Shown here piece after piece: positions 1,194 to 39,899 of a stretch of 64,000 nucleotides of DNA. The stretch is taken from assembly GCA_903873965.1 (NCBI GenBank), contig CAIQQO010000201.1:1-64000 (forward strand), in the 5' to 3' direction. Position numbers and translations under genes: made by a program. The stretch is from an uncultured bacterium. Lineage in GTDB: Bacteria; Chloroflexota; Anaerolineae; J036; Brachytrichaceae. Every line of letters starts with the position of its first letter. Positions within the stretch are counted from its first letter, which is position 1. The notes beneath the pieces were generated by a model. That model searched no databases and was not told where the DNA came from. It worked only from the letters and a program-made list of their open reading frames with translations.

Positions 1194-2393
1194 CTATAGC
1201 GCCCCGGTAAAGGCCTGGTGCAGGAGTGACTTTTTCAGTTCATCGAGCGCGGCGAGCTTGCGCTGGTAGATCGATTCGAGGCGTTGGGTTTCCTGACGAA
1301 TAGCGTCAAGTCGAGAAATAATAGTTTGCTGACTAGCAATTGGCGGCAGCGGTATCTGCAGGCTGGTTATCTGTCGAATTGTCAATTGCTGCAATGCAGT
1401 ACCAGTCTGAGATTCCGCAACAAGGTTTTGCATAAATGAAGATTGCAAAATGTAGTAAAGATACCAACTCAACACATTATCTTTGCACCTGAAATAAGCG
1501 ATTTGCGAGTTGAGATTCGCGTCATCGTATCTATTGTCTACAACAGCACTTTTACCAATCTCACCTCGATTAGTAAATAAAACATCGCCGGTTTTTAAGT
1601 GCCCTTTTCTTAATGATGTGTGCTTTTCTTTGGAAATGAATCTCATATCCTCATCCGAAATCTCACCATTAACCAGATTTACACTCCGAATAAAAGCGAT
1701 TCCTGATGATCGCATGTCACTGCTTTTGGGATAATTCTCGCCGTGGTTGCCATCACCGATTTCACAGATATCTAGAATGTTTCTTCCTCCCCAATTTCTA
1801 TTTGAAGTATCGTAAATACCCTGTAATATCGATTTATTCAACTCGCGGGCGTTTTGCAGGTTCTTCGCGGCGCTGGCTTTGGCGGTAGCGATGCTGTCAA
1901 ACGCCTCGTCGAGGATGCGGACGATGCGCTGTTGTTCGGGAAGGGGAGGAAACGGTATTTGCTGTGTTCTTACTTCACCATCGTTTACTGCTGGGTAACT
2001 GGCTCCCTTCTGCAAACTCTCCATCTGACTCATGAATTGTTCAGTGAAAAGAAAATAGAAGACAAAGCGATGATCTAACTCTGGTTTCGGTCTTAGGACG
2101 TAATAGCCTGTGCTACATACCTGGTTATCGAGTTCGTCAGGGACAATCGCGATGCGCCGCAATGTTGGCCGCACCGTGGCAAATAAGACATCATTAGCTT
2201 TTATGAGTCTGCGAGCCCGGCTAGGCGCGTCTTTACCTTTCAATCGCTGAGTTTCAATAATCTGAAATGTCTCATTCGAGACACTTGATACATCGATATA
2301 GCTGAACTCGGCTTCTGGCGATTGGAGTGGATTGATGGTCTCAGTCTTCTTCAAGACATCGCCAAGTGTCTTCCTTTGCCATCCCTGTTTCAC
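1194..2393 (-). CDS. hsdS: Type I restriction-modification specificity subunit HsdS
   Basis: The 399-residue product has the two-repeat architecture of HsdS: a target-recognition domain (about 1-150), a conserved helical spacer (PLPEQQRIVRILDEAFDSI, about 150-190), a second recognition domain (about 200-350) and a second spacer (PLPPIASQQTIISRLDAIRQ, about 345-395). HsdS selects the bipartite DNA target and holds two HsdM subunits through the spacers. The start is GTG at 2393. It overlaps the stop of the upstream four-helix-bundle ORF as GTGTGA and follows a perfect GGAGGT ribosome-binding site, so translation is probably coupled. The two recognition domains differ, as expected for an asymmetric target. 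The target sequence cannot be predicted from here. Confidence 0.95.
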   Translation of the reverse strand: MKQGWQRKTLGDVLKKTETINPLQSPEAEFSYIDVSSVSNETFQIIETQRLKGKDAPSRARRLIKANDVLFATVRPTLRRIAIVPDELDNQVCSTGYYVLRPKPELDHRFVFYFLFTEQFMSQMESLQKGASYPAVNDGEVRTQQIPFPPLPEQQRIVRILDEAFDSIATAKASAAKNLQNARELNKSILQGIYDTSNRNWGGRNILDICEIGDGNHGENYPKSSDMRSSGIAFIRSVNLVNGEISDEDMRFISKEKHTSLRKGHLKTGDVLFTNRGEIGKSAVVDNRYDDANLNSQIAYFRCKDNVLSWYLYYILQSSFMQNLVAESQTGTALQQLTIRQITSLQIPLPPIASQQTIISRLDAIRQETQRLESIYQRKLAALDELKKSLLHQAFTGAL

Positions 2394-2785
2394 ACCTTAC
2401 CTCCGCCATTCCGATACTGCAATCGCACCCGCGTCATGCGCTCGCGCAGCCCACATTGCTCGACGAAGTCCTGCTCCAGGCGGTGCAGTTGCTGGTCCAG
2501 CAGGTAGTTGGTCTGGTGGATCAGGCAGATGGCGATGTTGGCGACCACCTCGGCGGGGCGGGTCTCCACAAACGCGCGGTAGACCTCATAAGTCTGCGGC
2601 TTCCTGCGCCCCAGCGCGCGCACATACAACGCCTCCTTCGAGTCCTTGTCCCAGATCGGCAGGTTCGCGTGCGCCATGTTGGTCAGCTTAATCTCCGGTT
2701 CCTCACCAGAACGGGCATCACGTGATGGCCTCTGCTCATCCTTCCCATTCTTCCCATCAATCCTATTCTGTCCTTCATTCTTCAT
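2390..2785 (-). CDS. Internally deleted copy of four-helix-bundle suffix-domain protein
   Basis: This 131-residue ORF is a shortened copy of the neighbouring 214-residue protein (2843-3487). The C-terminal part, from IWDKDSKEALYVRALGRRK to the end, is almost identical. Two in-frame segments are missing: about 66 residues between EEPE and IKLTN, and about 16 residues just before IWDKD. The first deletion junction falls in similar 11-mers (ctcggtttcct and ctccggttcct), suggesting recombination at microhomology. Because the four-helix core is largely lost, the protein is probably non-functional, but the frame is intact and its stop overlaps the hsdS start, so it may persist for translational coupling. 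Call as a decaying paralogue. Confidence 0.75.
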   Translation of the reverse strand: MKNEGQNRIDGKNGKDEQRPSRDARSGEEPEIKLTNMAHANLPIWDKDSKEALYVRALGRRKPQTYEVYRAFVETRPAEVVANIAICLIHQTNYLLDQQLHRLEQDFVEQCGLRERMTRVRLQYRNGGGKV

Positions 2786-3512
2786 AACAACTCTAGAATA
2801 TCCTCCAACACGGCCGCGCTATCATCACCCGTCCCAAAATGCTCATGGCTTGCCCCCACTCCGATACTGCAACCGCACCCGCGTCATGCGCTCGCGCAAC
2901 CCGCCTTGCTCAACAAAATCCTGCTCCAAGCGGTGCAGTTGCTGGTCCAGCAGGTAGTTGGTCTGGTGAATCAGGCAGATGGCGATATTGGCGACCACTT
3001 CGGCGGGGCGAGTCTCCACAAACGCGCGGTAGACCTCATAAGTCTGCGGCTTCCTGCGCCCCAGCCCGCGCACATACAACGCCTCCTTCGAGTCCTTGTC
3101 CCAGATCGCCAGGTCGCGGGCGCGCAGGTAGTCGCGATAATCATCGAGCAACTCTTCCAGGCTCGCGCGCGCCACATTGGTCAGCTTGATCTCGGTTTCC
3201 TTTGAGGTCAGCGCCGCCTTGCTGCCCTCCAGGATATTCTTCTTGCCCGATCGCGCCGCCTGAATCATCTGGTCGATGGTGCGGTCGTTGTAGGCCAGGA
3301 ACTTGTGCGCAAACCGGAACGTGATGTCATACACCACTTCCGCCTTCTGAAACGACAGCAGCGTCTGGTAGTCTCCCCTCGGCGGCAACAACCGCTCCGG
3401 TTCCTCACCAGAATGGGCGTCATGCGATGGGCTCTGACCATCCTTCCCATTCCTCCCCTCATTCCCATTCATTTCCTTCTTCTTCATAGCAGTCCCCTGA
3501 TATTCTCCAACA
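2403..3512. repeat. Tandem duplication of hsdM 3' tail plus four-helix-bundle gene
   Basis: Two neighbouring segments (about 2403-2842 and 2862-3512) share long, nearly identical stretches, such as the run beginning gcgtcatgcgctcgcgca in both. Upstream of the short copy the minus strand encodes SAAVLEDILELL followed by a stop, matching the hsdM C-terminus SAEVLENIRGLL. The same TATGAAGA junction joins each tail to the following gene. The duplicated unit therefore includes the end of hsdM as well as the four-helix-bundle gene. Confidence 0.8.
2843..3487 (-). CDS. Four helix bundle suffix domain-containing protein
   Basis: The 214-residue protein has a low-complexity charged N-terminus (about 30 residues) and then a helical domain with the pattern of the four-helix-bundle (23S intervening-sequence / suffix domain) family: LLSFQKAEVVYDITFRFAHKF, followed by DRTIDQMIQAARSGKKNILEGS and a C-terminal helix LLDQQLHRLEQDFVEQGG. 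Such small proteins are found inside type I RM loci and other defence loci, but their role is not established. An RNA- or protein-binding scaffold is a guess. The ATG overlaps the hsdM stop as ATGA, so it is co-transcribed and translationally coupled with hsdM. Confidence 0.82.
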   Translation of the reverse strand: MKKKEMNGNEGRNGKDGQSPSHDAHSGEEPERLLPPRGDYQTLLSFQKAEVVYDITFRFAHKFLAYNDRTIDQMIQAARSGKKNILEGSKAALTSKETEIKLTNVARASLEELLDDYRDYLRARDLAIWDKDSKEALYVRGLGRRKPQTYEVYRAFVETRPAEVVANIAICLIHQTNYLLDQQLHRLEQDFVEQGGLRERMTRVRLQYRSGGKP

Positions 3513-4938
3513 CCTCCGCACTTTCCGCGTCCAGCGCCGCGATCTCATCGAGAATATCCTGCGGGTTGCGATGAACCACCACCTCGCCGCCATTCGGGTT
3601 CTTCACCGACAAATCAAACGTCGTCGCGTCGATGGTAACCGCCTCCACGCACCAGCTTTGGGGTGAATCGGCGCGGGTGCGCGCCAGCGTGACGAACTCC
3701 TTCAGGTCATCGTCGTTCAGCGGATTGGTCTTGCCCAGGTTACGCCCCGGGTCAAGCTGGTAATACCACACCTGGCGCGTCTTGCTGCCCTTCTCAAAGA
3801 ACAGCACGATGGTCTTCACGCCCGCGCCCTGAAAGGTGCCTCCGGGGCAATCGAGCACCGCGTACAGGTTGCAGCTTTCCAGCAACAGCTTGCGCAGACT
3901 CACCGAGGCGTTGTCGGTGTTCGACAGAAACGTATTCTTGATGACGATGCCGCCGCGCCCGCCGGCTTTGAGCATCTTGATGAAGTGTTGCAGGAACAGA
4001 AACGCCGTCTCGCCAGTGCGGATCGGGAAATTCTGCTGCACTTCCTTGCGCTCCTGCCCGCCAAACGGTGGATTCGCCAGCACCACGTCGTAACGGTCTT
4101 TCTCCTGCACGTCGGCCAGGTTCTCGGTCAGCGTGTTGGTGTGCAGGATGTTGGGCGCTTCGATGCCATGCAGAATCATGTTCATGATGGCGATCACATA
4201 GGCCAGCGACTTCTTCTCCTTGCCGTAAAACGTGCGCGCCTGCAGCGTATCGAGCTGAGTGGTCGTCAGGTTGGGCGTGGCTTTGAGGTAGTCGAAGGCC
4301 TCGCACAGGAAGCCCGCCGACCCGCACGCGCCGTCATAGATTGTGTCGCCCACCTTGGGCTGTACTACCTGGATCATGGCGCGAATGAGCGGGCGCGGCG
4401 TGTAATACTCACCGCCGTTGCGCCCCGCGTTGCCCATGTTCTTGATCTTGCCCTCGTAGAGAAACGACAGCTCGTGCTTCTCGGTCTGCGAACGGAACTG
4501 CAACTCGTCGATGTGGTCGATGATCTCGCGCAGGTTGTAGCCGCTCGAAATCTTGTTCTTGATCTCGCCGAAAATCTGCCCGATCTTGTATTCAATGGTG
4601 TTGGGGCCAGTGGCGCGCTGGGTGAATCCGCCGAGGTACGGGAACAGCTTTTGGTTGACGAAATCGCGCAGGTCGTCGCCGGTGAGGGCGCGGTTGTGAT
4701 CGAGTTGGCCGTCGCCGGATCTGGGCGCGGCCCAGCGTTCCCAGCGGTAGGGCGCTTCGAGGATGAAGGTGTAGCGTTTGCTGCTCAGTTCGGCTTCGAG
4801 CGACTTATCCTGCTCGAGCGCGTCGAGGTACTTCAGGAACAAGAGCCACGAGGTTTGCTCGATGTAGTCGAGTTCGGTCGTGCAGCCGGCCTCTTTTCGC
4901 AGAACGTCGTCAATATTCCTGAATGCTTGTTCAAACAT
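3484..4938 (-). CDS. hsdM: Type I restriction-modification DNA methyltransferase HsdM
   Basis: The 484-residue protein has the N-terminal helical HsdM domain (EAGCTTELDYIEQTSWLLFLKYLDAL) and the N6-adenine methyltransferase fold. SAM-binding motif I is YDGACGSAGFL (canonical DPACGTGGFL) near residue 200, and catalytic motif IV is ANPPFGG near residue 290. It methylates adenine in the HsdS-defined target and, with HsdR, forms the restriction complex. It is the first gene of the minus-strand island hsdM, four-helix-bundle gene (twice), hsdS, XRE-ImmA. hsdR is not in the window and may lie beyond the left edge. Long antisense ORFs in this stretch are shadows. Confidence 0.96.
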   Translation of the reverse strand: MFEQAFRNIDDVLRKEAGCTTELDYIEQTSWLLFLKYLDALEQDKSLEAELSSKRYTFILEAPYRWERWAAPRSGDGQLDHNRALTGDDLRDFVNQKLFPYLGGFTQRATGPNTIEYKIGQIFGEIKNKISSGYNLREIIDHIDELQFRSQTEKHELSFLYEGKIKNMGNAGRNGGEYYTPRPLIRAMIQVVQPKVGDTIYDGACGSAGFLCEAFDYLKATPNLTTTQLDTLQARTFYGKEKKSLAYVIAIMNMILHGIEAPNILHTNTLTENLADVQEKDRYDVVLANPPFGGQERKEVQQNFPIRTGETAFLFLQHFIKMLKAGGRGGIVIKNTFLSNTDNASVSLRKLLLESCNLYAVLDCPGGTFQGAGVKTIVLFFEKGSKTRQVWYYQLDPGRNLGKTNPLNDDDLKEFVTLARTRADSPQSWCVEAVTIDATTFDLSVKNPNGGEVVVHRNPQDILDEIAALDAESAEVLENIRGLL

Positions 4939-5040: not shown

Positions 5041-5829
5041 CTACTTGTTCGCCGGTAAAGTCTGCACCAACCCGCGAATATACGTCATCGCTGCCCCAAG
5101 CGGGCCGTGTTCTTCCCCGGCGTAAATGTCGCTGATCAACGACACGCCCGGGTAGCGCCTCGTGTTGATGACATTGACCAATTCGTGATAAAAGGGCATC
5201 CAACTGCCCTCAAACTCATGGTCGCCGATCGACATGTAAAGCTGGATCGGTGGCGTCGCTGGGCGCAGTTTCAGCGTCTGATCGTGAGCTTGCCAGTAGT
5301 CGCACGAAATATACAGATCGGGGCTGCCGGCAAGGTATGTCCGGAACGCATCTGGCTCATGCAGCAGGGCATACAGGGCAAAAAAGCCGCTGGACGAATA
5401 CCCGTACAGGATGCGTTGGTCACGATGAGCGCGGTAATGGGCTTCGATAAAGGGCACGATTTCGCCGGTCAACGCTTTCAAAAATAACTCGGCGTGACTG
5501 TTGGCCGGCGCATCTTTCACCTCGGGCACCTTGAAATCGACCTCGCGCAGTTCGCCCCATTGCTCCATCCGTTCAAGATCGTAGCTGATGCCGACCACGA
5601 TGATATCGGGCGTGCCGAACGACATGCCCAGCACAGCCGTCGCGCTATGCGCCATGCCAGTGTTGACGTCGCCATCCAGCACATAGACGACCGGGTAGGC
5701 CTGCGTTGATGTGTCATACCCATTAGGAAGCACCACGTCGAGGCGGTATTCCCGCTGCACGTGTTGGCAGAAAATCCGGCGTTCTTGTGTGTGATACAGG
5801 CTGACGCGTGGAAACTGATCAGGCATCAT
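5041..5829 (-). CDS. Alpha/beta-hydrolase esterase, Fes/IroE-like (esterase D family)
   Basis: This 262-residue protein has the layout of the putative esterase family (COG2819). There is an N-terminal beta-rich segment, YPVVYVLDGD early in the fold, and a nucleophile elbow GYSSSG (about residues 140-150) replacing the usual GHSxGG. A conserved SIGDHEFEG stretch probably carries the acid residue, and the C-terminal EEHG supplies the catalytic histidine. Relatives hydrolyse enterobactin-type siderophores or small acyl esters. No signal peptide is evident, so it is probably cytoplasmic. It stands alone, about 100 bp from hsdM and divergent from the CODH operon. The substrate is unknown. Confidence 0.85.
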   Translation of the reverse strand: MMPDQFPRVSLYHTQERRIFCQHVQREYRLDVVLPNGYDTSTQAYPVVYVLDGDVNTGMAHSATAVLGMSFGTPDIIVVGISYDLERMEQWGELREVDFKVPEVKDAPANSHAELFLKALTGEIVPFIEAHYRAHRDQRILYGYSSSGFFALYALLHEPDAFRTYLAGSPDLYISCDYWQAHDQTLKLRPATPPIQLYMSIGDHEFEGSWMPFYHELVNVINTRRYPGVSLISDIYAGEEHGPLGAAMTYIRGLVQTLPANK

Positions 5830-6132: not shown

Positions 6133-6543
6133 ATGGAAAAACTTACTCTAGATCTCCCCGGAATGTACGGCGATCATCATGTAACTGAAGTCCGCAAGAT
6201 TCTTCTGGAACTGCCCGGCGTTGTCGAAGTCTACGCCAGCAGTTGTTTTCATGTAGCCGAAGTGACCTTTGACCCGACCTTGATGACAGCTGAAGTTGTC
6301 ACTGCTCGGATGGAAGGGGCGGGTTACATTAAAGACATGTCAATGCCGTTGGAAAGCGGTGACTCACCGTTGACTCCCGATACGAGCGCGATATTCTTCC
6401 GTCACACGGTCGCTTATCAGCAGACCGGCCGCACGGTTGGTTTCGCTCAGAATGTTGCCTACACAGGCCGCGCATTGTGGCCGTGTCCCGGTATGGAAAC
6501 GATGAAGACCAAGGAGGGTCGAGATGGCGAAGAAAGAGCGTAG
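6133..6543 (+). CDS. HMA-like small protein leading the CODH/ACS operon
   Basis: The first about 65 residues of this 136-residue protein follow the beta-alpha-beta-beta-alpha-beta pattern of heavy-metal-associated (HMA) domains: LTLDLPGMYGDHHVTEVRKILLELPGVVEVYAS, then VAEVTFDPTLMTAEVVTARMEGAGY. The metal-binding CxxC expected after GM is replaced by GMYGDHH, so His/Asp rather than a Cys pair is available. The C-terminal half is not recognised and contains WPCPGME. Its end overlaps the start of the CO dehydrogenase gene by 20 bp, so the two are translationally linked. A role in nickel handling or CODH maturation is inferred from position only. Alternatively it could be a structural subunit or regulator. 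Confidence 0.7.
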   Translation: MEKLTLDLPGMYGDHHVTEVRKILLELPGVVEVYASSCFHVAEVTFDPTLMTAEVVTARMEGAGYIKDMSMPLESGDSPLTPDTSAIFFRHTVAYQQTGRTVGFAQNVAYTGRALWPCPGMETMKTKEGRDGEERA

Positions 6544-8539
6544 TCCACAAGAACGCAGCATGGATCCTGCCGGTCAGGCCATGTTGATTCGCGCCGATGA
6601 GTTGCATATCGGCACCGCTTTCAGTCGCGCTGATGAGATGGCGCCGTGCAATATTGGCAGCACCGGCATGTGCTGCAAGATGTGCGGTATGGGGCCATGC
6701 CGTCTGACCAAAGACGGACAGACTGGCGTATGCGGCGCGACGATTGACACGATTCAGGCGCGCAATTACCTGCGCATGGTTGCTGCGGGTTCCGCTGCGC
6801 ATTCCGACCACGGGCGCGATATGGCGTTTACATTGAAAGCCGTGGCAAACCATGAAGCCGAAGGTTATATTCTGCGTGACGTTGCCAAGTTGCGCACCAC
6901 GGCTGCTCTGTATGACATTCCTATTGACGGGCGCACCAATGATCAGGTAGCCAATGATTTGGCGGATCTCTTCATAGCCCAATTTGGACAGCAACGCGGT
7001 CAGGTCGTGCCGATCAAGCGCGCGCCTGCCAAGCGTCAGAAGCTATGGGCAGAAAGGGGAGTGATCCCGCGAGGTATCGACCGCGAAGTAGTTGAAGCTT
7101 TGCACCGAACCCATGTCGGCGATGACCAGGATCCGGCGCACATTCTCCACCATGCGATTCGCACCTCTCTAACTGATGGCTGGGGCGGCAGCATGATTGC
7201 CACCGACGTCTCGGATATCCTGTTCGGCACACCGGCTCCCGTCCTCGGGCAGGCCAACCTGGGCGTGTTGAAGAAGGACATGGTCAACGTCGTCGTCCAC
7301 GGTCACGAGCCAACACTCAGCGAGATGATTGTGGCTGCGTCACAGGACCCCGAGATCATCGCGTATGCGCGCGCCGCAGGCGCCAATGGCGTTAACCTGT
7401 CCGGCATCTGTTGCACGGCAAACGAAATCCTGATGCGCCAGGGCATCCCGGCAGCCGGAAACTTCCTGCACCAGGAACTGGCTATCCTGACCGGTTCGGT
7501 TGAAGCCATGGTCGTCGACGTGCAGTGCATCATGCAGGCACTTGTCGGTCTAGCCAGCAACTTCCATACGCTGGTCATCACCACTTCGCCCAAAGCCAAG
7601 ATCACAGGCGCCATGCACATGGAGTTTGACGAGCGCCATGCGTTGACGACCGCCAAGGAAATCCTGCGCAAGGCGATTGATAACTTTAAGAACCGTGGCG
7701 AGACGCGCATTCCTGATGTGCGTGAGAACCTGATCCCGGGTTTCTCGAATGAATACATCAGCTACATGCTGGGCGGCACCTATCGTGCCTCTTTCCGCCC
7801 GCTCAACGATGCCATCATTTCCGGGCGTATCCGTGGTGTTGCTGCCGTTGTTGGTTGCAATAACCCGCGCAGTACGCAGGACTACCTACACACAGTCACC
7901 ACACGCGAATTGCTGAAGCAGGACGTGCTGGTCGTTGAAACGGGTTGCAGCGCCATTGCCAATGCGAAACTCGGCCTTTTGCTGGGTCAGGCCGGCCTCG
8001 ATCAGGTCGGACCAGGTCTGCGCGAAGTGTGCGAGACCGTCGGTATACCGCCCGTGCTGCACATGGGCTCGTGCGTTGATAACACCCGCATCCTTACAGT
8101 GCTGACGCAGATGGTAGCGGAAGGCGGTCTGGGCGATGACATTGACCAGATTCCCGCCGTTGGCCTTGCGCCTGAGTGGATGAGTGAGAAAGCCATCGCC
8201 ATTGGAACGTATTGTGTGGCTTCCGGCGCCTATGTCATCTTTGGCGGAGCATCGCCCGTAGGCGGTATGCCCGATCGCGTCACCGACAGCGACATTGTGT
8301 TGAAGTACATCAGCGAAGGCTGGGAAAAGTTGTATGGCGGCAAGATGGAATTCGTGGTGGACCCGCACGAGATGGTGCGCCGCACACTCGAGCACATTGA
8401 CGCTAAACGCGCTGCGCTTGGCCTGGTGAAGTACAGCCCAACCCGCTTTGGTCGTAGCGGTGATGATCGGATGGTCGAACTGGAAAAACTGTCACTCTCA
8501 GAGCGACAGGCAGCCATGTACGGCGTGCCGGCCAGGTAA
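6524..8539 (+). CDS. acsA: Anaerobic Ni-Fe CO dehydrogenase catalytic subunit (CODH beta of CODH/ACS)
   Basis: The 671-residue protein is a full-length CooS/AcsA. An N-terminal cysteine cluster, CNIGSTGMCCKMCGMGPCR (about residues 43-61), followed by a VCGA cysteine, binds the D and B [4Fe-4S] clusters. C-cluster ligands are recognisable later in ICCTANEILMRQG, VVGCNNPR, ETGCSAIANAKLG and MGSCVDNTRI. It interconverts CO and CO2 and, in complex with ACS, passes CO through the internal channel. The start at 6524 is supported by a near-perfect AAGGAGG 7 nt upstream, inside the end of the HMA-like gene. acsB follows 14 bp downstream. Its placement beside acsB argues for the AcsA form rather than a stand-alone CooS. 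Confidence 0.97.
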   Translation: MAKKERSPQERSMDPAGQAMLIRADELHIGTAFSRADEMAPCNIGSTGMCCKMCGMGPCRLTKDGQTGVCGATIDTIQARNYLRMVAAGSAAHSDHGRDMAFTLKAVANHEAEGYILRDVAKLRTTAALYDIPIDGRTNDQVANDLADLFIAQFGQQRGQVVPIKRAPAKRQKLWAERGVIPRGIDREVVEALHRTHVGDDQDPAHILHHAIRTSLTDGWGGSMIATDVSDILFGTPAPVLGQANLGVLKKDMVNVVVHGHEPTLSEMIVAASQDPEIIAYARAAGANGVNLSGICCTANEILMRQGIPAAGNFLHQELAILTGSVEAMVVDVQCIMQALVGLASNFHTLVITTSPKAKITGAMHMEFDERHALTTAKEILRKAIDNFKNRGETRIPDVRENLIPGFSNEYISYMLGGTYRASFRPLNDAIISGRIRGVAAVVGCNNPRSTQDYLHTVTTRELLKQDVLVVETGCSAIANAKLGLLLGQAGLDQVGPGLREVCETVGIPPVLHMGSCVDNTRILTVLTQMVAEGGLGDDIDQIPAVGLAPEWMSEKAIAIGTYCVASGAYVIFGGASPVGGMPDRVTDSDIVLKYISEGWEKLYGGKMEFVVDPHEMVRRTLEHIDAKRAALGLVKYSPTRFGRSGDDRMVELEKLSLSERQAAMYGVPAR

Positions 8540-8553
8540 GGAGATTTACACTC

Positions 8554-10845
8554 ATGTCACGCTATATTGCAACACGCGCCATTCGCGGCGCAAACGCGCT
8601 GGTTTCCGAGGCTGAATCGATGCTCCAGAGAGCCATCGTTGAAAAAGGCCCCGATACGCCGGTTGCCTTTCCCAACACAGCCTATTACCTGCCATTAATC
8701 TTCGGCATGACCGGACGACAGGTCGAGAGCATCGGTCAACTACAGCCGGTGCTGGAGCATGCACGCGGATTGCTGCATCCGATTCCTTCACAGAAGAATT
8801 GGACGCCCTATCTGGGTGAAACTCTGGACAGCGGCATGGCCACCTTGCTTGCTGCCGAGTCCATTGAAGCCATCCGCTTCGCCTACGGACAGCAACCCGA
8901 GCCTGCGAGGAATTTCCATCTGGCTGGCGGCACTGCCTTCACCAGCCCGGAAGGCGCTGAAGGCGCTATCAAGAGCATCGACGGCCATCTCAATGGCCCG
9001 ATTGACGATATTCAGTTGCGCACCTGGGGTATTCAGTTGGTGGATGGGCGCATGCCCGGGTTCGCGGCCATTGTCGGCGCGGCCAAGTCGAACGAAGTCG
9101 CCGTGAAAATCGTGCGCGAACTGCAGCGCCGCAATATCCTCACCTTCCTGTCAGGCAATGTCAATGGACGCAGCATCATTGATCAACTGAACGAAGAGGG
9201 CGTTGAGCTGGGTTATGACACTTTCATCGTGCCCTTCGGCACCGATACGCTGAGCGCGATCTACGCCCTTGGTTTCGCTACCCGCTCGGCCTTGACCTTC
9301 GGCGGAAAGAAGGGCGGCATGGCGCGTGATATCCTGCTCTACAACAAGGAGCGCGTGTTTGCCTTTGTCCTTGCCCTGGGTGAAGTAGATGATCTCAAGT
9401 ATGCGGCCGCTGCCGGCGCAATTAACTTCGGTTTCCCCGTTATTGCTGATACAGTGATTCCCGAGATTCTACCCACTGGCGTGACCACCTATGAGCACGT
9501 AGTCAGTATGCCGTTCAACGAAATCGACGGCGCTGACGACTTGGAACGCGCCGAGCGCCTGGTGCAGAAGTGCATCGAAGTGCGCGGCATCAAAGTGCAT
9601 GTGGCCAACGTCCCCGTGCCCGTGGCCTACGGCTCCGCGTTTGAAGGCGAGGTCGTTCGCAAGGCCGATATGCGCATCGAGTTCGGCGGTAAGTATTCCA
9701 AGTGTTTCGAATACCTGCATATGGCCGACCTGGACGATGTGACCGATGGTAAAGTGGACGTTGTCGGCAAGGGATTTGAAAACGTCCCGGCGCAAGGCCA
9801 CATGGACATGGGCATCGTGGTTAAAGTGGCCGGACGCGGCATGCAAAAGGACTTCGAACCGGTGCTGGAGCGCCAGGTGCACCACTTTGTAAACGGTGCG
9901 TCAGGCATTCAGCATATTGGTCAGCGCGACATTGCATGGGTGCGCATTTCGAATGTGGCAGCCGATAAGGGCTTTAACCTGGAGCACTTCGGCAAAATCC
10001 TGCATGCGCGCCTGCATGCTGATTTTGGCGCTATCGTCGACAAGGTGCAGGTTACCATCTATACCGACCCGGAGCAGTTCCAGAAGTGGCTCGCAAAAGC
10101 GCGCGAAGCCTACGACTTCCGCAACAAGCGTCTGGCTGACCTGGTCGATGGCGCGGTCGATGAGTTTTACTCGTGCACACTGTGCCAGTCCTTCGCGCCC
10201 AATCATGTCTGCATCGTCAGCCCGGAGCGTCTGGGTCTGTGCGGCGCCTACAACTGGCTGGACTGCAAGGCATCGTTCAGCATCAATCCCACCGGCCCCA
10301 ACCGGCCGATCAAACTGGGTGCGCCCATTGACCCGGCTAAGGGTTACTGGACGGGTTTGAACGAATACGCCAAGTCTGGATCGCACGGCGCGGTTTCGGA
10401 TGTCGCCATGTACTCGATCATGGAAAACCCCATGACGGCGTGCGGCTGCTTTGAAAGCATCGTCATGCTGATCCCGGAAACAAATGGCGTCATGGTTGTA
10501 AGTCGTGAAGACACCAGCATGACACCCGCCGGTATGACCTTCAGCACGATGGCTGGTATGGCCGGCGGCGGCCTGCAGACCCCCGGTGTGATGGGCGTCG
10601 GCAAATACTACCTGATCAGCCCGAAATTCATCTCATCGGATGGCGGCTTCAAGCGTGTCGTGTGGATGAGCAGCGCATTGAAGGCGACCATGTCGGACGA
10701 ATTGCAGGCTGTCGCGATTCGTGAAGGCGATCCCGATCTGATTGACAAAATCGCCGATGAGCGTTCGGTGACAACGGTCGATCAGTTGCTGGCATGGCTG
10801 GAAGAGCACAACCATCCAGCTCTGGCCATGGATCCCATATTCTGA
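8554..10845 (+). CDS. acsB: Acetyl-CoA synthase, CODH/ACS alpha subunit
   Basis: The 763-residue protein joins the methyl group from CFeSP, CO from CODH and CoA into acetyl-CoA at the Ni-Ni-[4Fe-4S] A-cluster. The A-cluster signature is intact: CTLCQSFAPNHVC, then GLCGAYNWLDC (about residues 540-575), and the distal-nickel CGC in TACGCFES (about residue 630). The length is close to bacterial ACS (about 730) and includes the N-terminal CODH-contacting domain that the archaeal CdhC lacks, so it is the bacterial form. An AAGGAG site overlaps the acsA stop and precedes the ATG. A GC-rich hairpin follows the stop before the CBS-protein gene. Confidence 0.97.
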   Translation: MSRYIATRAIRGANALVSEAESMLQRAIVEKGPDTPVAFPNTAYYLPLIFGMTGRQVESIGQLQPVLEHARGLLHPIPSQKNWTPYLGETLDSGMATLLAAESIEAIRFAYGQQPEPARNFHLAGGTAFTSPEGAEGAIKSIDGHLNGPIDDIQLRTWGIQLVDGRMPGFAAIVGAAKSNEVAVKIVRELQRRNILTFLSGNVNGRSIIDQLNEEGVELGYDTFIVPFGTDTLSAIYALGFATRSALTFGGKKGGMARDILLYNKERVFAFVLALGEVDDLKYAAAAGAINFGFPVIADTVIPEILPTGVTTYEHVVSMPFNEIDGADDLERAERLVQKCIEVRGIKVHVANVPVPVAYGSAFEGEVVRKADMRIEFGGKYSKCFEYLHMADLDDVTDGKVDVVGKGFENVPAQGHMDMGIVVKVAGRGMQKDFEPVLERQVHHFVNGASGIQHIGQRDIAWVRISNVAADKGFNLEHFGKILHARLHADFGAIVDKVQVTIYTDPEQFQKWLAKAREAYDFRNKRLADLVDGAVDEFYSCTLCQSFAPNHVCIVSPERLGLCGAYNWLDCKASFSINPTGPNRPIKLGAPIDPAKGYWTGLNEYAKSGSHGAVSDVAMYSIMENPMTACGCFESIVMLIPETNGVMVVSREDTSMTPAGMTFSTMAGMAGGGLQTPGVMGVGKYYLISPKFISSDGGFKRVVWMSSALKATMSDELQAVAIREGDPDLIDKIADERSVTTVDQLLAWLEEHNHPALAMDPIF

Positions 10846-10959: not shown

Positions 10960-11490
10960 ATGGCTGATACTAACGCTCCACGAGAGCGGTTGCTGGTGCG
11001 GGATCTGATGGCCGTTGGCGTGGCAACTTGCCCGCCTGTGACGCCGATTGCAGAGGTCGCGCGACTAATACTCGACAAGAATCTCGAAGGCGTCATTGTG
11101 CTCGATATCGAGGGCGAGGCTGTTGGCGTCGTCACGCAGGATGAACTGGTAACAGCTTATAGCAACGACAATCGGGCTGCTCTCACCGCCGAAGACATCA
11201 TGCGCGCCAAGGTGCCGCAGATTGCCCCGGATCTACCGCTTGAAGTCGCGGCTCAGTTGATGCGCGACATGAAAGTGCGCGTGGCGTACCAGATGCACGA
11301 GGCAGCGGGTATACGCTATCCGGCAGCTTCGCTGTCGTACCGTCACCTGCTGCGCCATCTGGCGGCTCAGAATGACGCCGAACTTCAGGATCTGGGGTCT
11401 GCTGCACCGCGAAAACTTCCACTCGAATCATTTTTTGAGAGACGCGATGCGGCGCGAAAGACCGCGGGTACAAAAAACCAAAACACCTAA
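10960..11490 (+). CDS. CBS-domain pair protein within CODH/ACS operon
   Basis: The 176-residue protein consists of two CBS motifs. The first runs through about residues 10-70 (VRDLMAVGVATCPPVTPIAEVARLIL, then EGVIVLDIEGEAVGVVTQDEL). The second is about 78-130 (AEDIMRAKVPQIAPDLPLEVAAQLM, then a degenerate VRVAYQMHEAAGIRYPAAS). A charged tail of about 45 residues follows. Such Bateman modules bind adenine nucleotides or SAM and regulate partner proteins. It has no catalytic domain. Lying between acsB and acsD, it is a candidate energy or SAM sensor for the complex or the operon, which is inference only. Confidence 0.85.
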   Translation: MADTNAPRERLLVRDLMAVGVATCPPVTPIAEVARLILDKNLEGVIVLDIEGEAVGVVTQDELVTAYSNDNRAALTAEDIMRAKVPQIAPDLPLEVAAQLMRDMKVRVAYQMHEAAGIRYPAASLSYRHLLRHLAAQNDAELQDLGSAAPRKLPLESFFERRDAARKTAGTKNQNT

Positions 11491-11576: not shown

Positions 11577-12548
11577 ATGCCCCAAGTGGAAATACCCAAA
11601 GATTCCTGGTCCGGCTCAGTCACTACAGTGACGCTGGGCGCGACAGCTGCCGACGGCGGGACGCGCTCCCACACTATTACCGTTGGCGGTCATAAAGCGC
11701 TGCCGTTTATGCACTTCGAGCAGAAAATGGCGCACCGCCCTTTGATTGCGCTGGAAATTAAGGATCATCGCCCTGACGATTGGTCACCGCTGCTGCTTGA
11801 CCTATGGGGAGATGCCGCCAATGATCCCGCCAGCTGGGCCAAAGCCGCAGAAAGCGCCGGCGCTGATGCGCTTGTTTTGTGGCTCAGCCAGAACGGCACA
11901 GATGGTAAGCCAACCACGCCCCAGGCGGCAGTCGCCTCGACCAAGGCTGTCCTGCAGGCCAGCGGTTTGCCCCTGCTGGTATTTGCGCCCGGACAAGCGG
12001 AACTGGACAATGCCCTGTTGGTGCCTATTTCCGAGGCAACTACCGGCGAGCGGTTGGTTCTGGGTATCTGCGAAGATAAGAACTATCGTACGATTGCGGC
12101 CACGGCGATGGCGAACGGGCATCTGATCAGCACGCGCACACCCATGGATGTTAACCTGGCTAAACAGCTTAACATTCTGGTGCGTGATATGGGCATCCCA
12201 CCCGATCGCATCCTGATGGACCCAACCACAGGCGGTCTGGGTTATGGGATCGAGTATGGGTATTCCGTGATGGAGCGTCTGCGTCTTGCGGCATTGCAAG
12301 GTGACGGTAACACGCAGTCGCCCATGATTGTGACGCCGGGTGCCGAAGCGTGGAAAACCAAAGAGGCCAAGGTAGGCCACGATGTTCCGGCGACGTGGGG
12401 CGAATGGCTGGAACGGGCGATCAACTGGGAGACGTTGACCGCAATGGCGTTGGTCGAGTCAGGTGCAGATATCATCGTGCTTCGACACCCCGAAAGCATG
12501 CGCCGTTTGCGCGCAGCCATTGACGAGCTGATGTCTGTGCCGGCCTAG
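11577..12548 (+). CDS. acsD: Corrinoid iron-sulfur protein small subunit (CFeSP delta)
   Basis: This 323-residue TIM-barrel protein is the small CFeSP subunit, which together with AcsC binds the cobamide that carries the methyl group from methyl-THF to ACS. The N-terminal strand region (VTLGATAADGGTRSHTITVGGHKALPFM) and the RILMDPTTGGLGYGIEYGYSVMERLRLAAL segment are characteristic. Its length agrees with other AcsD proteins (about 310-325). A GAGGAG site lies about 10 nt before the ATG. The 86-bp gap after the CBS gene contains only a small GTACT-cc-AGTAC inverted repeat. acsC follows 44 bp downstream. Confidence 0.96.
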   Translation: MPQVEIPKDSWSGSVTTVTLGATAADGGTRSHTITVGGHKALPFMHFEQKMAHRPLIALEIKDHRPDDWSPLLLDLWGDAANDPASWAKAAESAGADALVLWLSQNGTDGKPTTPQAAVASTKAVLQASGLPLLVFAPGQAELDNALLVPISEATTGERLVLGICEDKNYRTIAATAMANGHLISTRTPMDVNLAKQLNILVRDMGIPPDRILMDPTTGGLGYGIEYGYSVMERLRLAALQGDGNTQSPMIVTPGAEAWKTKEAKVGHDVPATWGEWLERAINWETLTAMALVESGADIIVLRHPESMRRLRAAIDELMSVPA

Positions 12549-12592: not shown

Positions 12593-13948
12593 ATGCCACT
12601 TTCCGGTTTACAAATCTATAAGCTTCTGCCCAAGACCAACTGCAAGGATTGCGGTCTGCCGACGTGTCTGGCTTTTGCCATGAAGTTGGCTGCGAAACAA
12701 ATGGAACTGGCGGCTTGCCCGCACGTCGGTGCCGAGGCGAAAGCGCAACTGGCCGATGCCTCAGAACCGCCCGTCAGATTGATTACGCTCAAGCCGTCCG
12801 CCAAAATCGCAGGCGGCCGCGAACTGAAGTCTGGCAACGAAACCGTGCTGTTCCGCCACGAAAAAACGTTTATCAACAAGCCAGGTATGTTCCTGCGCGT
12901 GCATGACAATGAACCCATCGCCTCCATCCAGGCCAGGGTGGCCGCGGTAGAGGCCTATTCCGTGCGCTACGTCGGCATGGACCTGACACTCGATGGCTTC
13001 GCCGTTCAGGCAGAGGCGCCGTTGGACGCTACTCGCTTTGCGAGTGTCGTCAGTGCCGTCCGCGCAGCCAGCAAGCGCCCCATGATACTCATCGCCCCGG
13101 ATGCCGCCGTGATGTCCGCCGGCCTGAAGGCCATTGAAGGCGATAATGCGCTGATCCACGGCGCTACGGCTGCTAACTATGAAGCCATGGCAGCACTGGC
13201 CAAGCAGTATCACTCAGCCCTAGTTGCTTGTGCCGATACTCTGGACGGTCTGGCCGACCTGACCAATAAGATTAAGGCTAAAGGTGTCGATGACCTGGTA
13301 CTCGATCCAACGTCGCGACAACTCGGCGCTTCCCTGACGCGCCAAACCCAGATACGTCGGCTGGCGCTCAAGAAAGACTTCCGGCCCCTGGGATATCCCA
13401 TCATCGCCTTCCCGGGCGATGCAGCGCCAGACCAGGAAGCTTTGCAGGCCGCGCAAGCGATCGCCAAGTATGCGGGCTTTATCGTCCTCGAGCGCTTTGC
13501 GCCGGAGATGGTTTATCCGCTGCTGGTTCTGCGTGAGAATATCTACACCGATCCGCAGAAACCGATTCAGGTGCTGCCTGGTCTATATGAGATTAACAAC
13601 CCCAAGCCTACCGACCCGGTGCTTGTGACGACCAATTTCAGCATCACCTATTTCAGCGTCGCGAATGAAGTCGAAGGCGCCGGCTTACCGGCCTGGTTGC
13701 TGATTGTTGACGCTGAAGGCATGAGCGTCCTGACGGGTTGGGCAGCGGGTAAGTTTGACGCCGAGCGCATCGCCAAGGCCGTAAAGGACAGCGGTGTTGC
13801 GAACAAGGTCACAAGGCATCGACTCGTCGTGCCTGGCCATGTCGCGGTGCTGTCGGGTGAACTGGAAGAAGCCCTGTCGAACTGGGAGATCCGCGTTGGC
13901 CCGCGCGAAGCCGTTGACCTGCCCGCATTCATGAAGCAGGTGCTGTGA
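12593..13948 (+). CDS. acsC: Corrinoid iron-sulfur protein large subunit (CFeSP gamma)
   Basis: The 451-residue large CFeSP subunit starts with the [4Fe-4S]-binding domain NCKDCGLPTCLAFAMKLA followed by AACPHV (C-x2-C-x4-C-x16-C, about residues 17-43). This cluster mediates reductive reactivation of Co(II). A TIM-barrel domain follows (about 90-330), and the C-terminal domain expected to bind the cobamide ends the protein (GMSVLTGWAAGKFDAERIAKAV). It acts in the cytoplasm as a heterodimer with AcsD. The stop is separated by only one nucleotide from the GTG start of the RACo-like gene, so activator and substrate are translationally coupled. Confidence 0.96.
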   Translation: MPLSGLQIYKLLPKTNCKDCGLPTCLAFAMKLAAKQMELAACPHVGAEAKAQLADASEPPVRLITLKPSAKIAGGRELKSGNETVLFRHEKTFINKPGMFLRVHDNEPIASIQARVAAVEAYSVRYVGMDLTLDGFAVQAEAPLDATRFASVVSAVRAASKRPMILIAPDAAVMSAGLKAIEGDNALIHGATAANYEAMAALAKQYHSALVACADTLDGLADLTNKIKAKGVDDLVLDPTSRQLGASLTRQTQIRRLALKKDFRPLGYPIIAFPGDAAPDQEALQAAQAIAKYAGFIVLERFAPEMVYPLLVLRENIYTDPQKPIQVLPGLYEINNPKPTDPVLVTTNFSITYFSVANEVEGAGLPAWLLIVDAEGMSVLTGWAAGKFDAERIAKAVKDSGVANKVTRHRLVVPGHVAVLSGELEEALSNWEIRVGPREAVDLPAFMKQVL

Positions 13949-13949
13949 G

Positions 13950-15953
13950 GTGGCTGACCACTCTGTCCATTTCGATGTAACGCCGGACGCAACCGCGCTC
14001 TCAGAGACCCATCCACCCACGGTGCGCGTGCCAACAGGCACACTGGTGACTGAAGCAGCGCGGTTGGCCGGGATCGATCTCGGGCAACCGTGCGGCGGCC
14101 AGGGGCGTTGCGGGCGTTGCGCCGTGCAGGTCACTGGTGGCGACGTGCGCCGTCGCAGCACGCTGCGTTTGAAGCAGGAGGATGTGGCGGCGGGCTATGC
14201 GTTAGCCTGCCAGTCGGTCGTCGAAAGCGATGTGACCATTACCATCCCGTTGCAAGAGAAGATTGAGCGTCGCCTGACGACCGAACGCACAGCAATCGAG
14301 GTAAGCGTCCCCACCGGCTATTCCGCCGCGGCGCAGACGATGCGGCGAGTGGCGGTGCAACTGCAACCTGCCGATATGCAGGATCAGACTGACGACTGGA
14401 GTCGCCTCCAGTCCGCTCTGCGCCGTCAGACAGGTATACCCTCGTTGAGTGTCTCGCTGCCATTGTTGCGCCGACTCGGTGGTATTCTGCGCGAACAGGA
14501 CTGGGCCGTGACGGCTGTCATCGAAACCGACACGTGGGATCATCCAGCCGATGCCGCGCGCCTCGTTGACCTGGTATCCGGTCATGTGCCTGATCACGCC
14601 CCGCTGTGGGGTGTGGCCATCGATATCGGCACGACAACAGTGTCGCTATGGCTAGTCGACTTGATCACCGGTGCGGTGCGCGCTCAGGTCGCTGAATACA
14701 ACGGCCAGATATCCCGCGGTGAAGACGTGATTTCGCGCATCATCTACTCCAGTAAGAAGAACAGCGCTTCCCCTCTCCCCTCTGGCGAAGGCGGCCTCAT
14801 TGAGTTGCGCGATCTGGTTCTCAAGACGATCAACTCGCTGCTGGCAACGGCCTGTAAACGTGTGTTGGCGGATCCTGCGAGCGTCGTGAAGGCGACCATA
14901 GCGGGGAACAGCACGATGATGCACCTTCTTCTGGGCATACCGTGCGAGAGTATTCGTCTGGCGCCGTTTGTGACGGCAGTGAATCACCTGCCGGTACTAC
15001 CTGCGACAGTGGTTGGGCTGCACATTCATCCAGAGGGCAGCGTGGATTGTCTGCCCGGCGTCGCCAGTTATGTTGGCGCCGATATCAGCTCTGGCGTGCT
15101 GTCTTCCGGTCTGGACGATGCAGAACCCATGATGCTCTTCATGGACGTCGGCACCAATGGTGAAATTGTGCTGGGCAACCGCGAGTTTCTGGCGACGTGC
15201 GCATGCTCTGCCGGTCCGGCCTTCGAAGGCGCTGGTGTGCAGAATGGCATGCGCGCGACCGAAGGCGCCATCGAAGAGGTATGGATCAACAACGATACGC
15301 ACGAACCGACCTTCCGTGTTATTGGCGGAGGCAAGGCGCGTGGCGTGTGCGGCAGTGGTTTGATCGCTCTGCTCGCTGAGTTGTTCCTGACCGGCGTCAT
15401 CGACCGCAGCGGTCATTTCAACATGAACCTGTCTTCAGTCCGCGTACGGCGCGGTGAACATGGCCCTGAATATGTGATCGTGTGGGCGGCAGACAGCCAG
15501 ACAGGGTACGACATCGTCATCACCCACGTCGATGTAGATAACCTGATGCGGGCCAAGGCGGCCATTTATGCCGGTTTCACCGTTCTCGCGGATAAAGTGG
15601 GTATGCCGCTGGAGATGGCGGAGCAGGTGCTGATCGGCGGCTCGTTCGGCAAATATATCAATGTTGAAAAGGCCGTCGAGATCGGTCTGTTACCGGATAG
15701 GTCGTGGGACAGCTTCAAGTTCCTCGGTAACACCTCCGTGCGGGGCGCCTATCTGGCGCTGCTCGATCGCGCGGCGCGCGCCCGTATCCGCGACATTGCC
15801 GGTCGTATGACGTATATCGAGCTGACTGCCGACAACAGCTTTTATGAAGCATTTACATCTGCGCTCTTCCTGCCCCATACGGACCTGTCACGGTTCCCGA
15901 CGGTTCAGGCAGCGCTGGCGCAGAATCCAAAAAACTTGTCAAAAGAGGAATAA
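13950..15953 (+). CDS. RACo-like reductive activator of CFeSP ([2Fe-2S] plus ASKHA domain, DUF4445)
   Basis: The 667-residue protein has an N-terminal plant-type ferredoxin domain with [2Fe-2S] ligands PCGGQGRCGRC and the later ALAC (about residues 48-90). A middle linker domain follows. The C-terminal ASKHA ATPase domain has the phosphate-1 loop AIDIGTTTVSLWL (about 226), AGNSTMMHLLLG, MDVGTNGEIVLG and IGGSFGKYINVEKA. Known RACo uses ATP to drive an electron uphill to restore Co(I) CFeSP, and the gene position after acsC fits this. The start is GTG 1 nt after acsC. An insertion reading SPLPSGEGG (about residue 275) interrupts the ASKHA domain and resembles a translated small repeat. Confidence 0.93.
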   Translation: MADHSVHFDVTPDATALSETHPPTVRVPTGTLVTEAARLAGIDLGQPCGGQGRCGRCAVQVTGGDVRRRSTLRLKQEDVAAGYALACQSVVESDVTITIPLQEKIERRLTTERTAIEVSVPTGYSAAAQTMRRVAVQLQPADMQDQTDDWSRLQSALRRQTGIPSLSVSLPLLRRLGGILREQDWAVTAVIETDTWDHPADAARLVDLVSGHVPDHAPLWGVAIDIGTTTVSLWLVDLITGAVRAQVAEYNGQISRGEDVISRIIYSSKKNSASPLPSGEGGLIELRDLVLKTINSLLATACKRVLADPASVVKATIAGNSTMMHLLLGIPCESIRLAPFVTAVNHLPVLPATVVGLHIHPEGSVDCLPGVASYVGADISSGVLSSGLDDAEPMMLFMDVGTNGEIVLGNREFLATCACSAGPAFEGAGVQNGMRATEGAIEEVWINNDTHEPTFRVIGGGKARGVCGSGLIALLAELFLTGVIDRSGHFNMNLSSVRVRRGEHGPEYVIVWAADSQTGYDIVITHVDVDNLMRAKAAIYAGFTVLADKVGMPLEMAEQVLIGGSFGKYINVEKAVEIGLLPDRSWDSFKFLGNTSVRGAYLALLDRAARARIRDIAGRMTYIELTADNSFYEAFTSALFLPHTDLSRFPTVQAALAQNPKNLSKEE

Positions 15954-15958
15954 TAGGC

Positions 15959-16882
15959 ATGTACATCATTGGCGAAAACATCCATATCATGTCGCAGCGG
16001 GTGAAAGACGCGCTGCAGGCTAAAGATGCCCGCTTCTTCCAGGAGCGTGCTGTGCAGCAAGTGGAAGCCGGAGCGCAGGCGTTGGACATCAACCTGGGAC
16101 CGCGCAAGAAAGATTGGGAAGAAGTCTTCCCTTGGATGGTGCAGACGGTCGAGTCCGTTGTCGACGTGCCCATCGTCTTCGATAGCACCAACCTGCTTGG
16201 CATTGAAGCCGGGTTGAAGAAGGTCACCAAGGCGCAACCGATCATTAACTCGACGTCAGCCGAACCGGAGCGCTTGGAGAAGGTGCCGTTGCTGGCAAAA
16301 AAGTACAACACGCGCCTGGTCGCCTTGACTATGGGCGCAAGCGGTATCCCGGTTGGCGCTGACGAACGCGTTACCATTGCGATTGAGCAATTGATCCCGC
16401 GCATGCTCGAAATTGACTTCCCGATGTCCGACTTGATCATCGATCCGCTGGTTCTGACGGTCTCAGGTTGCCAGGAATACTGTCCTGAACTCATCGAAGC
16501 GATCCGAACGCTGCAGGTGGCATGGAGCCCCTCGCCGGTCATTTCCGTCGGCCTGTCGAACGTGTCAAATTCGGTGCCGAACGAGAATCGCTCGCTCATT
16601 AATCGCACCTACTGCGCGATGCTGATGGGCACCGGCCTGAACATGCTGATTGGCGACCCGTTGGATATACCCCTGATGGAGACCATTCGCATCATTGAGC
16701 AGCGCGATATGAGCACACCCGTGGGACGTCTGTTTCTCAAGATCAACGACCGCATCGCGGCGTCGGAGTATCCGGTCCTTGAAGATGTCGATGCCGGCGA
16801 TCCGGAACAGATGGCGATCTGGAAGACAGTGCAGATTCTGTTGAATAAGGTCATTTACGCTGACGCGTATCTGCAACTTTAA
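15959..16882 (+). CDS. acsE: 5-methyltetrahydrofolate:corrinoid iron-sulfur protein methyltransferase
   Basis: The 307-residue pterin-binding TIM-barrel protein moves the methyl of methyl-THF to Co(I) of CFeSP, linking the two pathway branches. Diagnostic segments are IIGENIHIMSQRV at the N-terminus, GAQALDINLGPRKKDW, VFDSTNLLGIEAGL, IINSTSAEPERLEK, and the pterin-pocket SVGLSNVSNSVPNENRSLINR. The C-terminal extension after about residue 265 is typical of AcsE and absent from MetH modules. GAGG lies about 11 nt before the ATG. Its TAA overlaps the cooC start as TAATG. A more distant paralogue lies at 27155-28036. Confidence 0.96.
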   Translation: MYIIGENIHIMSQRVKDALQAKDARFFQERAVQQVEAGAQALDINLGPRKKDWEEVFPWMVQTVESVVDVPIVFDSTNLLGIEAGLKKVTKAQPIINSTSAEPERLEKVPLLAKKYNTRLVALTMGASGIPVGADERVTIAIEQLIPRMLEIDFPMSDLIIDPLVLTVSGCQEYCPELIEAIRTLQVAWSPSPVISVGLSNVSNSVPNENRSLINRTYCAMLMGTGLNMLIGDPLDIPLMETIRIIEQRDMSTPVGRLFLKINDRIAASEYPVLEDVDAGDPEQMAIWKTVQILLNKVIYADAYLQL

Positions 16883-17673
16883 TGAAAATAGCCATTAGCG
16901 GTAAGGGTGGTGTAGGTAAGACAACGTTGACCGCGCTTCTGGCGCAGGTCTACGCTGATGTCGGGCGCGATGTATTGGCAGTTGATGCCGATCCTTCACC
17001 GTGTCTCGCCGGCGCGCTGGGTTTTCCAGCCAACCTGCGCGCTCGGTTGCGCCCGATCGTCGAGATGTCGGAATTGATCGAGGAGCGGACGGGAGCAAAG
17101 CCTGGAACTATGGGCGGCTTCTTCACCCTCAATCCGCGCGTTGATGATCTGCCGGAGCGCTTCAGCGTCGAGCATCGCGGCGTGCGCCTGCTCGAAATGG
17201 GCGCAGTCGAGATCGGCGGCTCTGGCTGTATCTGCCCCGAAGGCGCCATGCTCAAAACCTTGATGACGCATCTGATGTTTCGCAAGGATGACGTGCTGAT
17301 ACTGGATATGTACGCCGGTGTCGAGCACCTGGGGCGCGCTACGGTTGATTTTGTCGACGCCATGATTGTGGTTGTCGAACCCACGCGCCGCAGTCTGGGT
17401 ACTGCGGCGCAGATCAAGAAACTGTCCAATGACATTGGTCTGAAACGGCTGTGGCTGGTGGGCAACAAAGTGCGCAACGCGGATGAAGCCGCCTTTCTGC
17501 GCGCCGAAACACCCGGCATGCCTGTGCTGGGTCTTCTGCCTGCTGATCTCGCTGTTCAAGAGGCTGATAGGATGGGGATCGCGGTATATGATCATGTCCC
17601 CTCGTTGCGACAGGTTGCTACAGAAATCGCCAATATGATTGCCGACGAGAGTGCACTGCAGCGCAGTACGTGA
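16882..17673 (+). CDS. cooC: CooC/AcsF-type nickel-insertion ATPase, copy 1
   Basis: The 263-residue SIMIBI/ParA-like NTPase has a deviant Walker A SGKGGVGKTT at residues 6-15, followed by VDADPSPCLAGALG. The C-x-C motif GCICPEGAM (about residue 115) is the nickel-binding, dimer-interface motif of CooC. The protein uses ATP to load nickel into CODH and/or ACS. The ATG overlaps the acsE stop by one base, indicating the same transcript. It shares only the fold and motifs with the second CooC 145 bp downstream. The two may serve different nickel sites (C-cluster and A-cluster), which is inference. Confidence 0.93.
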   Translation: MKIAISGKGGVGKTTLTALLAQVYADVGRDVLAVDADPSPCLAGALGFPANLRARLRPIVEMSELIEERTGAKPGTMGGFFTLNPRVDDLPERFSVEHRGVRLLEMGAVEIGGSGCICPEGAMLKTLMTHLMFRKDDVLILDMYAGVEHLGRATVDFVDAMIVVVEPTRRSLGTAAQIKKLSNDIGLKRLWLVGNKVRNADEAAFLRAETPGMPVLGLLPADLAVQEADRMGIAVYDHVPSLRQVATEIANMIADESALQRST

Positions 17674-17818
17674 GAGGATAGCGTGCTGGATGTCGAGTGC
17701 TTTAGCCGGTAGTAATCATCAATCGTGACTTGGTTGGTACCATCAGAGTCGTCAAGACAGGCTGGTTCTATCGCCTGAAGGCATCGATATTCAGACTGAA
17801 ATGAGTGGAGAGAAAAGC

Positions 17819-18610
17819 ATGACGACAACAATTGCGCTGGCCGGTAAAGGCGGCGTCGGTAAATCGACGATCGCCACGATGGTGATCAAATATTTAGTTC
17901 AGTCCCAGACGGGTTCGATCCTGGCGATCGATGCCGACCCAAGCAGCAACCTGTACATGACACTGGGATTGCAGGCTGAGTGCACCGTTGGCGATATCCG
18001 CGAAGGCATCCTCGATCAGGTAAAGCAATCGTTGCTACTGGGCGGCGCGGCCATGGGCACCTTACCGGGCGGCGTCACCAAGCGAGACTATCTCGACATG
18101 CAGATACGCTCGTCACTGGCAGAAGGCTCACGATTCGACCTGATCGCCATGGGGCGTTCCGAAGGCCAGGGTTGTTATTGTGCGGTGAATCACAACCTGC
18201 GCGAAGTCGTGGACGGTATCAGTCGCAACTATCGCTACGTGATCATTGACAACGAAGCCGGCATGGAACACCTTAGTCGCCGCACGACGCGCGACGTGCA
18301 GGTGTTGCTGGTGGTCACTGACCCAACGCAACGCGGCATAGTGGCTGCTGAAAACATCGCTGCTTTTCGTCATGAGCTAGGCATCAACATCGAGAAAACG
18401 TACCTGATTATCAATAACCTGACGACGCCGACGATCCCGACGCCGTTGCAGGCGCGCATCGACGCACTCGACATTCCGCTGCTGGGCACGGTGCCGCATA
18501 GCGATCGCATGGCCGAGTTCGAGTTCAGCGGCCAACCGCTGGTCGAGATGGGCGACGAGTCGCCGGTGTATCAGGCTGTGGCTGCCATGATGGCGAAAAT
18601 CCCCGCGTAA
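17819..18610 (+). CDS. CooC/AcsF-type nickel-insertion ATPase, copy 2
   Basis: This is a second MinD/CooC-like NTPase with Walker A AGKGGVGKST at about residues 7-16, IDADPSSNLYMTLG, the C-x-C motif GCYCAVNHNLREV and the switch-like IDNEAGMEHLSRRT. The ORF track starts at 17801, but ATG 17819 has GGAGAG 6 nt upstream and aligns with the usual CooC N-terminus, so 17819 is preferred (263 residues). It is the last gene of the carbonyl-branch operon. A 145-bp gap without a clear promoter separates it from copy 1, and a strong terminator follows. Confidence 0.92.
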   Translation: MTTTIALAGKGGVGKSTIATMVIKYLVQSQTGSILAIDADPSSNLYMTLGLQAECTVGDIREGILDQVKQSLLLGGAAMGTLPGGVTKRDYLDMQIRSSLAEGSRFDLIAMGRSEGQGCYCAVNHNLREVVDGISRNYRYVIIDNEAGMEHLSRRTTRDVQVLLVVTDPTQRGIVAAENIAAFRHELGINIEKTYLIINNLTTPTIPTPLQARIDALDIPLLGTVPHSDRMAEFEFSGQPLVEMGDESPVYQAVAAMMAKIPA

Positions 18611-39826: not shown

Positions 39827-39899
39827 TGAGCCGTGAGGGATTCGAACCCCCGACACAGGGATTAAAAGTCCCCTGCTCTACCAACTGAGCTAACGGCCC
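39827..39899 (-). tRNA. tRNA-Lys (anticodon TTT)
   Basis: The minus strand folds as a complete 73-nt cloverleaf. The acceptor GGGCCGT/ACGGCTC has one G-U pair. The D-arm is AGCTCAGTTGGTAGAGC, the anticodon stem GGGGA/TCCCT carries loop CTTTTAA (anticodon TTT, lysine), and the T-arm is GTCGGGGGTTCGAATCCC with discriminator A. CCA is not encoded. No integrase or duplicated 3' end was seen, so it is not used as an att site here. Confidence 0.96.

Follow-up and report, generated by a model that had tools for sequence, protein, structure and literature searches.

The route by which nickel reaches the C-cluster of CO dehydrogenase (CODH) is unsettled, and the known helper proteins do not account for all enzymes (PMC6006190). 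Two of these helpers, CooT and CooJ, are nickel-binding proteins of Rhodospirillum rubrum whose functions have yet to be clarified (PMC6006190). Nickel binding has also been described for SCO4226 of Streptomyces coelicolor, a small ferredoxin-fold protein without the MT/HCXXC motif, which uses Asp, Ser and His as Ni ligands (PMC4186839). The main text of a recent survey of the genomic context of CODH operons is silent on HMA and heavy-metal proteins (PMC13056359). Nor did a search of open-access literature turn up any account of an HMA protein encoded with CODH, although one may still exist elsewhere.

Here, we analyze a gene of this kind, termed HMAx, from a 64,000-nt stretch of DNA (the window) of an uncultured bacterium of the Anaerolineae, whose assembly comprises 5.19 Mb and is 75% complete. 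The conserved linkage of HMAx to CODH together with its new type of loop makes it a defined candidate in the question of nickel supply to the C-cluster.

The HMAx gene and its operon

The HMAx protein begins with the residues MEKL (N-terminus MEKLTLDLPGMYGDHHVTEVRK). Because the gene located 5′ of it (5041-5829) is divergent, the operon starts with HMAx, whose 3′ end overlaps acsA by exactly 20 bp (Table 1). The initial annotation had described an HMA-like protein without CxxC at the head of a CODH/ACS operon and a 20-bp overlap with the CODH gene. The former is borne out by Pfam, the predicted fold and the divergent upstream gene, the latter by the coordinates of both genes. Comparisons with two relatives gave dN/dS values of about 0.07 and 0.15, so that purifying selection acts on the open reading frame and it can be taken as a genuine gene. 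A spurious reading frame is ruled out by these values, by a D-H-H motif kept in 93 of 93 homologues and by the predicted fold.

Table 1. Features of the HMAx gene and of the CODH/ACS operon in the window.
Feature	Position	Strand	Remarks
HMAx, first gene of the CODH/ACS operon, HMA fold (predicted) without CxxC	6133..6543	+	136 aa, ATG start
GMYGDHH codons, residues 10-16, replacing GMxCxxC	6160..6180	+	D14, H15, H16 invariant
HMAx C-terminal tail, long type, residues 69-136	6337..6540	+	conserved RHT (R90-H91-T92) and WPCPG
acsA, Ni-containing CO dehydrogenase catalytic subunit	6524..8539	+	TIGR01702, 579 bits (cutoff 478)
acsB, acetyl-CoA synthase	8554..10845	+	NF040764, 947.6 bits (cutoff 800)
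CBS-domain protein	10960..11490	+	between acsB and acsD
acsD, corrinoid protein subunit delta	11577..12548	+	profile matches
acsC, corrinoid protein subunit gamma	12593..13948	+	profile matches
RACo/AcsV-like corrinoid reactivator	13950..15953	+	profile matches
acsE-like methyltransferase	15959..16882	+	profile matches
CooC-type ATPase 1	16882..17673	+	CIC motif
CooC-type ATPase 2	17801..18610	+	CYC motif

The gene for the CBS-domain protein occupies the same place in many related operons. On the minus strand, the window also carries type I restriction-modification genes (1194-4938; hsdM-like 3484-4938, hsdS-like 1194-2393), which enclose two near-duplicate small open reading frames (2390-2785 and 2843-3487). 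With the exception of one tRNA (39827-39899), no RNA elements were found in the window. A separate observation concerns AcsB, the alignment of which is split near residues 545 or 638 in many Anaerolineae within a single long open frame (for example at locus L048, 8500-12381, and in genomes G232, G103, G176, G014, G097, G064 and G303). The insert of L048 matches Pfam LAGLIDADG_3 above the cutoff and Intein_splicing with 32.6 bits, just below it, and probably represents an intein adjacent to the cysteines of the A-cluster.

Predicted fold and metal loop

An HMA fold is predicted for the N-terminal 68 residues of HMAx. The Pfam model HMA (PF00403) matches residues 5-65 with 26.4 bits (cutoff 24.8) and scores 21.7 bits, below the cutoff, in the family member L037. 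AlphaFold2 was run on five family sequences and returned the HMA element order for residues 2-62, in HMAx as E2-7, H14-25, E30-36, E41-46 and H53-62. The pLDDT block means are 69-90 for residues 1-70, and the values fall below 50 in the tail (69-136). The top Foldseek matches of the HMAx model are MerP (1osd, E 2.9e-5), a plant HMA7 domain and CopZ (2qif, TM 0.90 on target), and a sequence search of the PDB yielded the same kind of relatives. The predicted model and the Foldseek matches conform to the beta-alpha-beta-beta-alpha-beta fold of HMA domains. The concern that the fold might be unrelated to HMA is thereby answered by Pfam, AlphaFold2 and Foldseek alike. None of the NCBIfam families reported for the window protein attained its cutoff, the CopZ model reaching 23.1 bits versus 95.

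The reading of GMYGDHH as a substitute for the metal-binding CxxC proved correct for the whole family: CxxC is present in none of the 93 distinct members, all of which carry (G/A)-D-H-H in its place. In a 67-row family alignment, P9, D14, H15, H16, G29, S36 and Y65 are invariant. Of these residues, S36 (beta2-beta3 hairpin) and Y65 (alpha2-beta4 loop) presumably lie at the same end of the HMA fold as the metal loop. Outside the family, the closest sequences belong to CopZ-like proteins about 70 aa long, whose loops read CDHC, CGHC or CEHC. Their sequences suggest that the Asp and the first His were already present in CDHC loops, the first Cys being replaced by Gly or Ala and the second by His, so that (G/A)-D-H-H could derive from the C-x-H-C loop of a CopZ-type carrier ancestor.

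A generic copper chaperone is ruled out since both Cys are gone in every member, and the loss of thiols disfavors Cu(I). CopZ ancestry and the loss of both Cys would also suit a degenerate copper chaperone merely hitch-hiking with the operon. This explanation is scarcely credible, as it is contradicted by D-H-H in 93/93 members, the low dN/dS and retention across two phyla.

Distribution and linkage to acsA

Of 396 genomes from the same class that were searched for HMAx, 151 yielded matches. Further sampling covered other Chloroflexota classes and the class around an actinobacterial metagenome-assembled genome (MAG). In total, 93 distinct homologues were collected from Chloroflexota and the one class containing the actinobacterial MAG; none was found on plasmids. 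Two tail types can be distinguished. The long type (54 members, about 130 aa) is marked by the motifs RH(T/S/A) and CP(G/S), the Cys of the latter being conserved, and the short type (about 110 aa) ends mostly like MSG(D/E)xRKY and mostly lacks Cys. The tail type tracks the AcsA tree, in which 52 long-tail rows fall within one clade.

On the same strand and upstream of acsA, HMAx is found in 90 of the 93 members. The distance is at most 300 nt in 88 of these (15 overlapping, 25 within 30 nt and 48 within 300 nt), and in the remaining two (L106 and L107, genomes G126 and G053) about 3.9 kb of NuoE/NuoF-like genes precede acsA. This intervening stretch, which also encodes an Fe-S protein, may tie NADH electron transfer to CODH. 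One further member (L051) is located at a contig end. In the class of the actinobacterial MAG, HMAx stands directly before acsA at all HMAx loci examined, followed by acsB, acsD and acsC where the contig extends. The last two of the 93 members, both from genus g224, are unlinked and lie beside a glycosidase-like gene in genomes encoding CODH and ACS; since these copies are kept, HMAx can act in trans. The expected association of homologues with CODH therefore stands as regards confinement to CODH/ACS genomes and a position almost always directly upstream of acsA, but not as regards the operon itself, outside of which these two members lie. Linkage in two phyla, together with the two unlinked members in CODH genomes, rules out a chance neighbor.

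This arrangement bears on two further explanations. HMAx might be a metal-free structural or assembly partner which attaches to AcsA, or links AcsA with AcsB, via its tail and the D-H-H loop and stabilizes the complex. Such a role would agree with the two lineage-specific conserved tail types that follow the AcsA tree, with the loss of both metal-loop Cys and with the frequent overlap or close spacing to acsA, which suggests coupled translation. We nevertheless regard it as rather unlikely, because invariance centered on an Asp and two His exactly in the ancestral metal loop is hard to fit with docking alone and the unlinked copies of g224 are kept. Alternatively, HMAx could be a sensor of nickel or of the redox state that regulates the operon at the level of expression or activity, as its small size and first position might suggest. 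The lack of a DNA-binding domain (Pfam), the variable spacing to acsA and the existence of unlinked copies make this highly improbable.

HMAx and AcsB occur together in 145 of the 396 genomes and are both missing from 233; 6 genomes have HMAx without AcsB and 12 have the reverse (Fisher p about 9e-85, uncorrected for relatedness). Five of the six HMAx-only cases come from CODH-free genomes and represent generic HMA domains, and one is due to a contig break; the AcsB-only cases are mostly contig breaks or fragments. Within the genus of the window itself, G284 and G330 possess both genes, and G302 and G310 possess neither. Real exceptions are G012 and G048 of genus g19, in which acsA has moved out of the acs operon and HMAx is undetectable. 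The relocated acsA (L103/L104) lies beside a metallo-beta-lactamase-like gene, and its product is a natural HMAx-free CODH. The AcsA-AcsB pairs of L185 and L187, which fall outside the rest of the midpoint-rooted AcsA tree, also lack HMAx. AcsA does not always need HMAx, since it occurs without it in g19, L185 and L187.

Other Chloroflexota acsB-acsD-acsC operons without an adjacent acsA (L177-L180, L182-L184) are devoid of HMAx, and so is the fhs-acsB operon of G012 (L186), which has no acsA. Because acsB operons without acsA have no HMAx, HMAx tracks CODH and not ACS, and a function as helper of ACS (AcsB) is disfavored. The operon of G012 also argues against Fe or Zn being handled for the CODH Fe-S clusters or for another Wood-Ljungdahl enzyme encoded nearby, for instance formyl-THF ligase (fhs). 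That idea, which we consider improbable, draws on fhs lying just upstream at many loci and on general chemistry, by which Asp and His are suitable ligands not only for Ni but also for Zn and Fe; however, fhs of the window is located elsewhere on the other strand. In the AcsA tree, members of the actinobacterial class appear at two places among Chloroflexota, each with HMAx, which suggests that HMAx and acsA have traveled together. Taken as a whole, the genomic evidence strongly supports a dedication of HMAx to CODH.

Proposed role and comparison with known systems

By gene linkage and co-occurrence, HMAx behaves like a CODH maturation factor (90 of 93 upstream of acsA; 396 genomes). The explanation we favor, at about even chances, is that HMAx serves CODH next to CooC, either as a chaperone for Ni(II) or as an assembly factor for the C-cluster. 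The initial annotation had likewise suggested a nickel chaperone or a CODH assembly factor, and this reading is partly supported. According to the proposal, a divalent metal would be bound at the tip of the HMA fold, with D14, H15 and H16 as ligands. Ni(II) is the most likely candidate because CODH is a nickel enzyme and the operon contains two CooC-type ATPases. HMAx may then use its tail, which is conserved in a lineage-specific manner, to dock on AcsA, or on CooC, and assist the insertion of nickel into the C-cluster beside the two ATPases. The CopZ-like carriers as nearest relatives and a tail type that follows the AcsA clade are consistent with such a function, and SCO4226 offers a possible parallel for nickel binding by Asp, Ser and His without CxxC (PMC4186839). 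Several points speak against it: genus g19 and the lineages L185 and L187 have AcsA without HMAx, two CooC-type proteins with CxC are already encoded in the operon, the tail is predicted with low confidence, and the D-H-H loop could have a structural role or serve as a site for Zn or Fe.

More tentatively, and at slightly less than even chances, HMAx may constitute an undescribed family of CODH-dedicated Ni(II) metallochaperones with a copper-chaperone fold, in which CxxC has been replaced by D-H-H. Retained throughout an entire lineage of AcsA and transferred with AcsA from one phylum to another, it would add to CooC, CooT and CooJ one more way of maturing the C-cluster. Genus g19 represents natural HMAx knock-outs with CODH, and HMAx could help to explain why some CODHs resist activation in foreign hosts.

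HMAx is not CooC, CooT or CooJ. The operon of HMAx also encodes the CooC-type proteins, which act in CODH maturation; these, however, are P-loop ATPases with CxC, whereas HMAx has neither a P-loop nor CxC. CooT and CooJ of R. rubrum resemble HMAx in being small proteins from CODH operons and are nickel-related (PMC6006190). In contrast to HMAx, CooT is an all-beta dimer using Cys2; HMAx has no match to PF10133 (CooT) and no Cys at position 2, and CooT was not found in 11 of the 12 HMAx genomes tested. CooJ possesses a His-rich C-terminus, whereas the tail of HMAx contains one His. The Ni sites of SCO4226 are located at the dimer interface and not in the HMA loop, and this protein, proposed to sequester Ni, has no link to CODH. 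HMAx was not filed as CopZ, CooT or CooJ because their defining features fail. With the HMA carriers CopZ, Atx1 and MerP (PF00403), it shares the fold, the domain length and the position of the PGM loop, but it is set apart from them by (G/A)-D-H-H in place of CxxC in all 93 members, by an extra conserved tail and by its tie to CODH.
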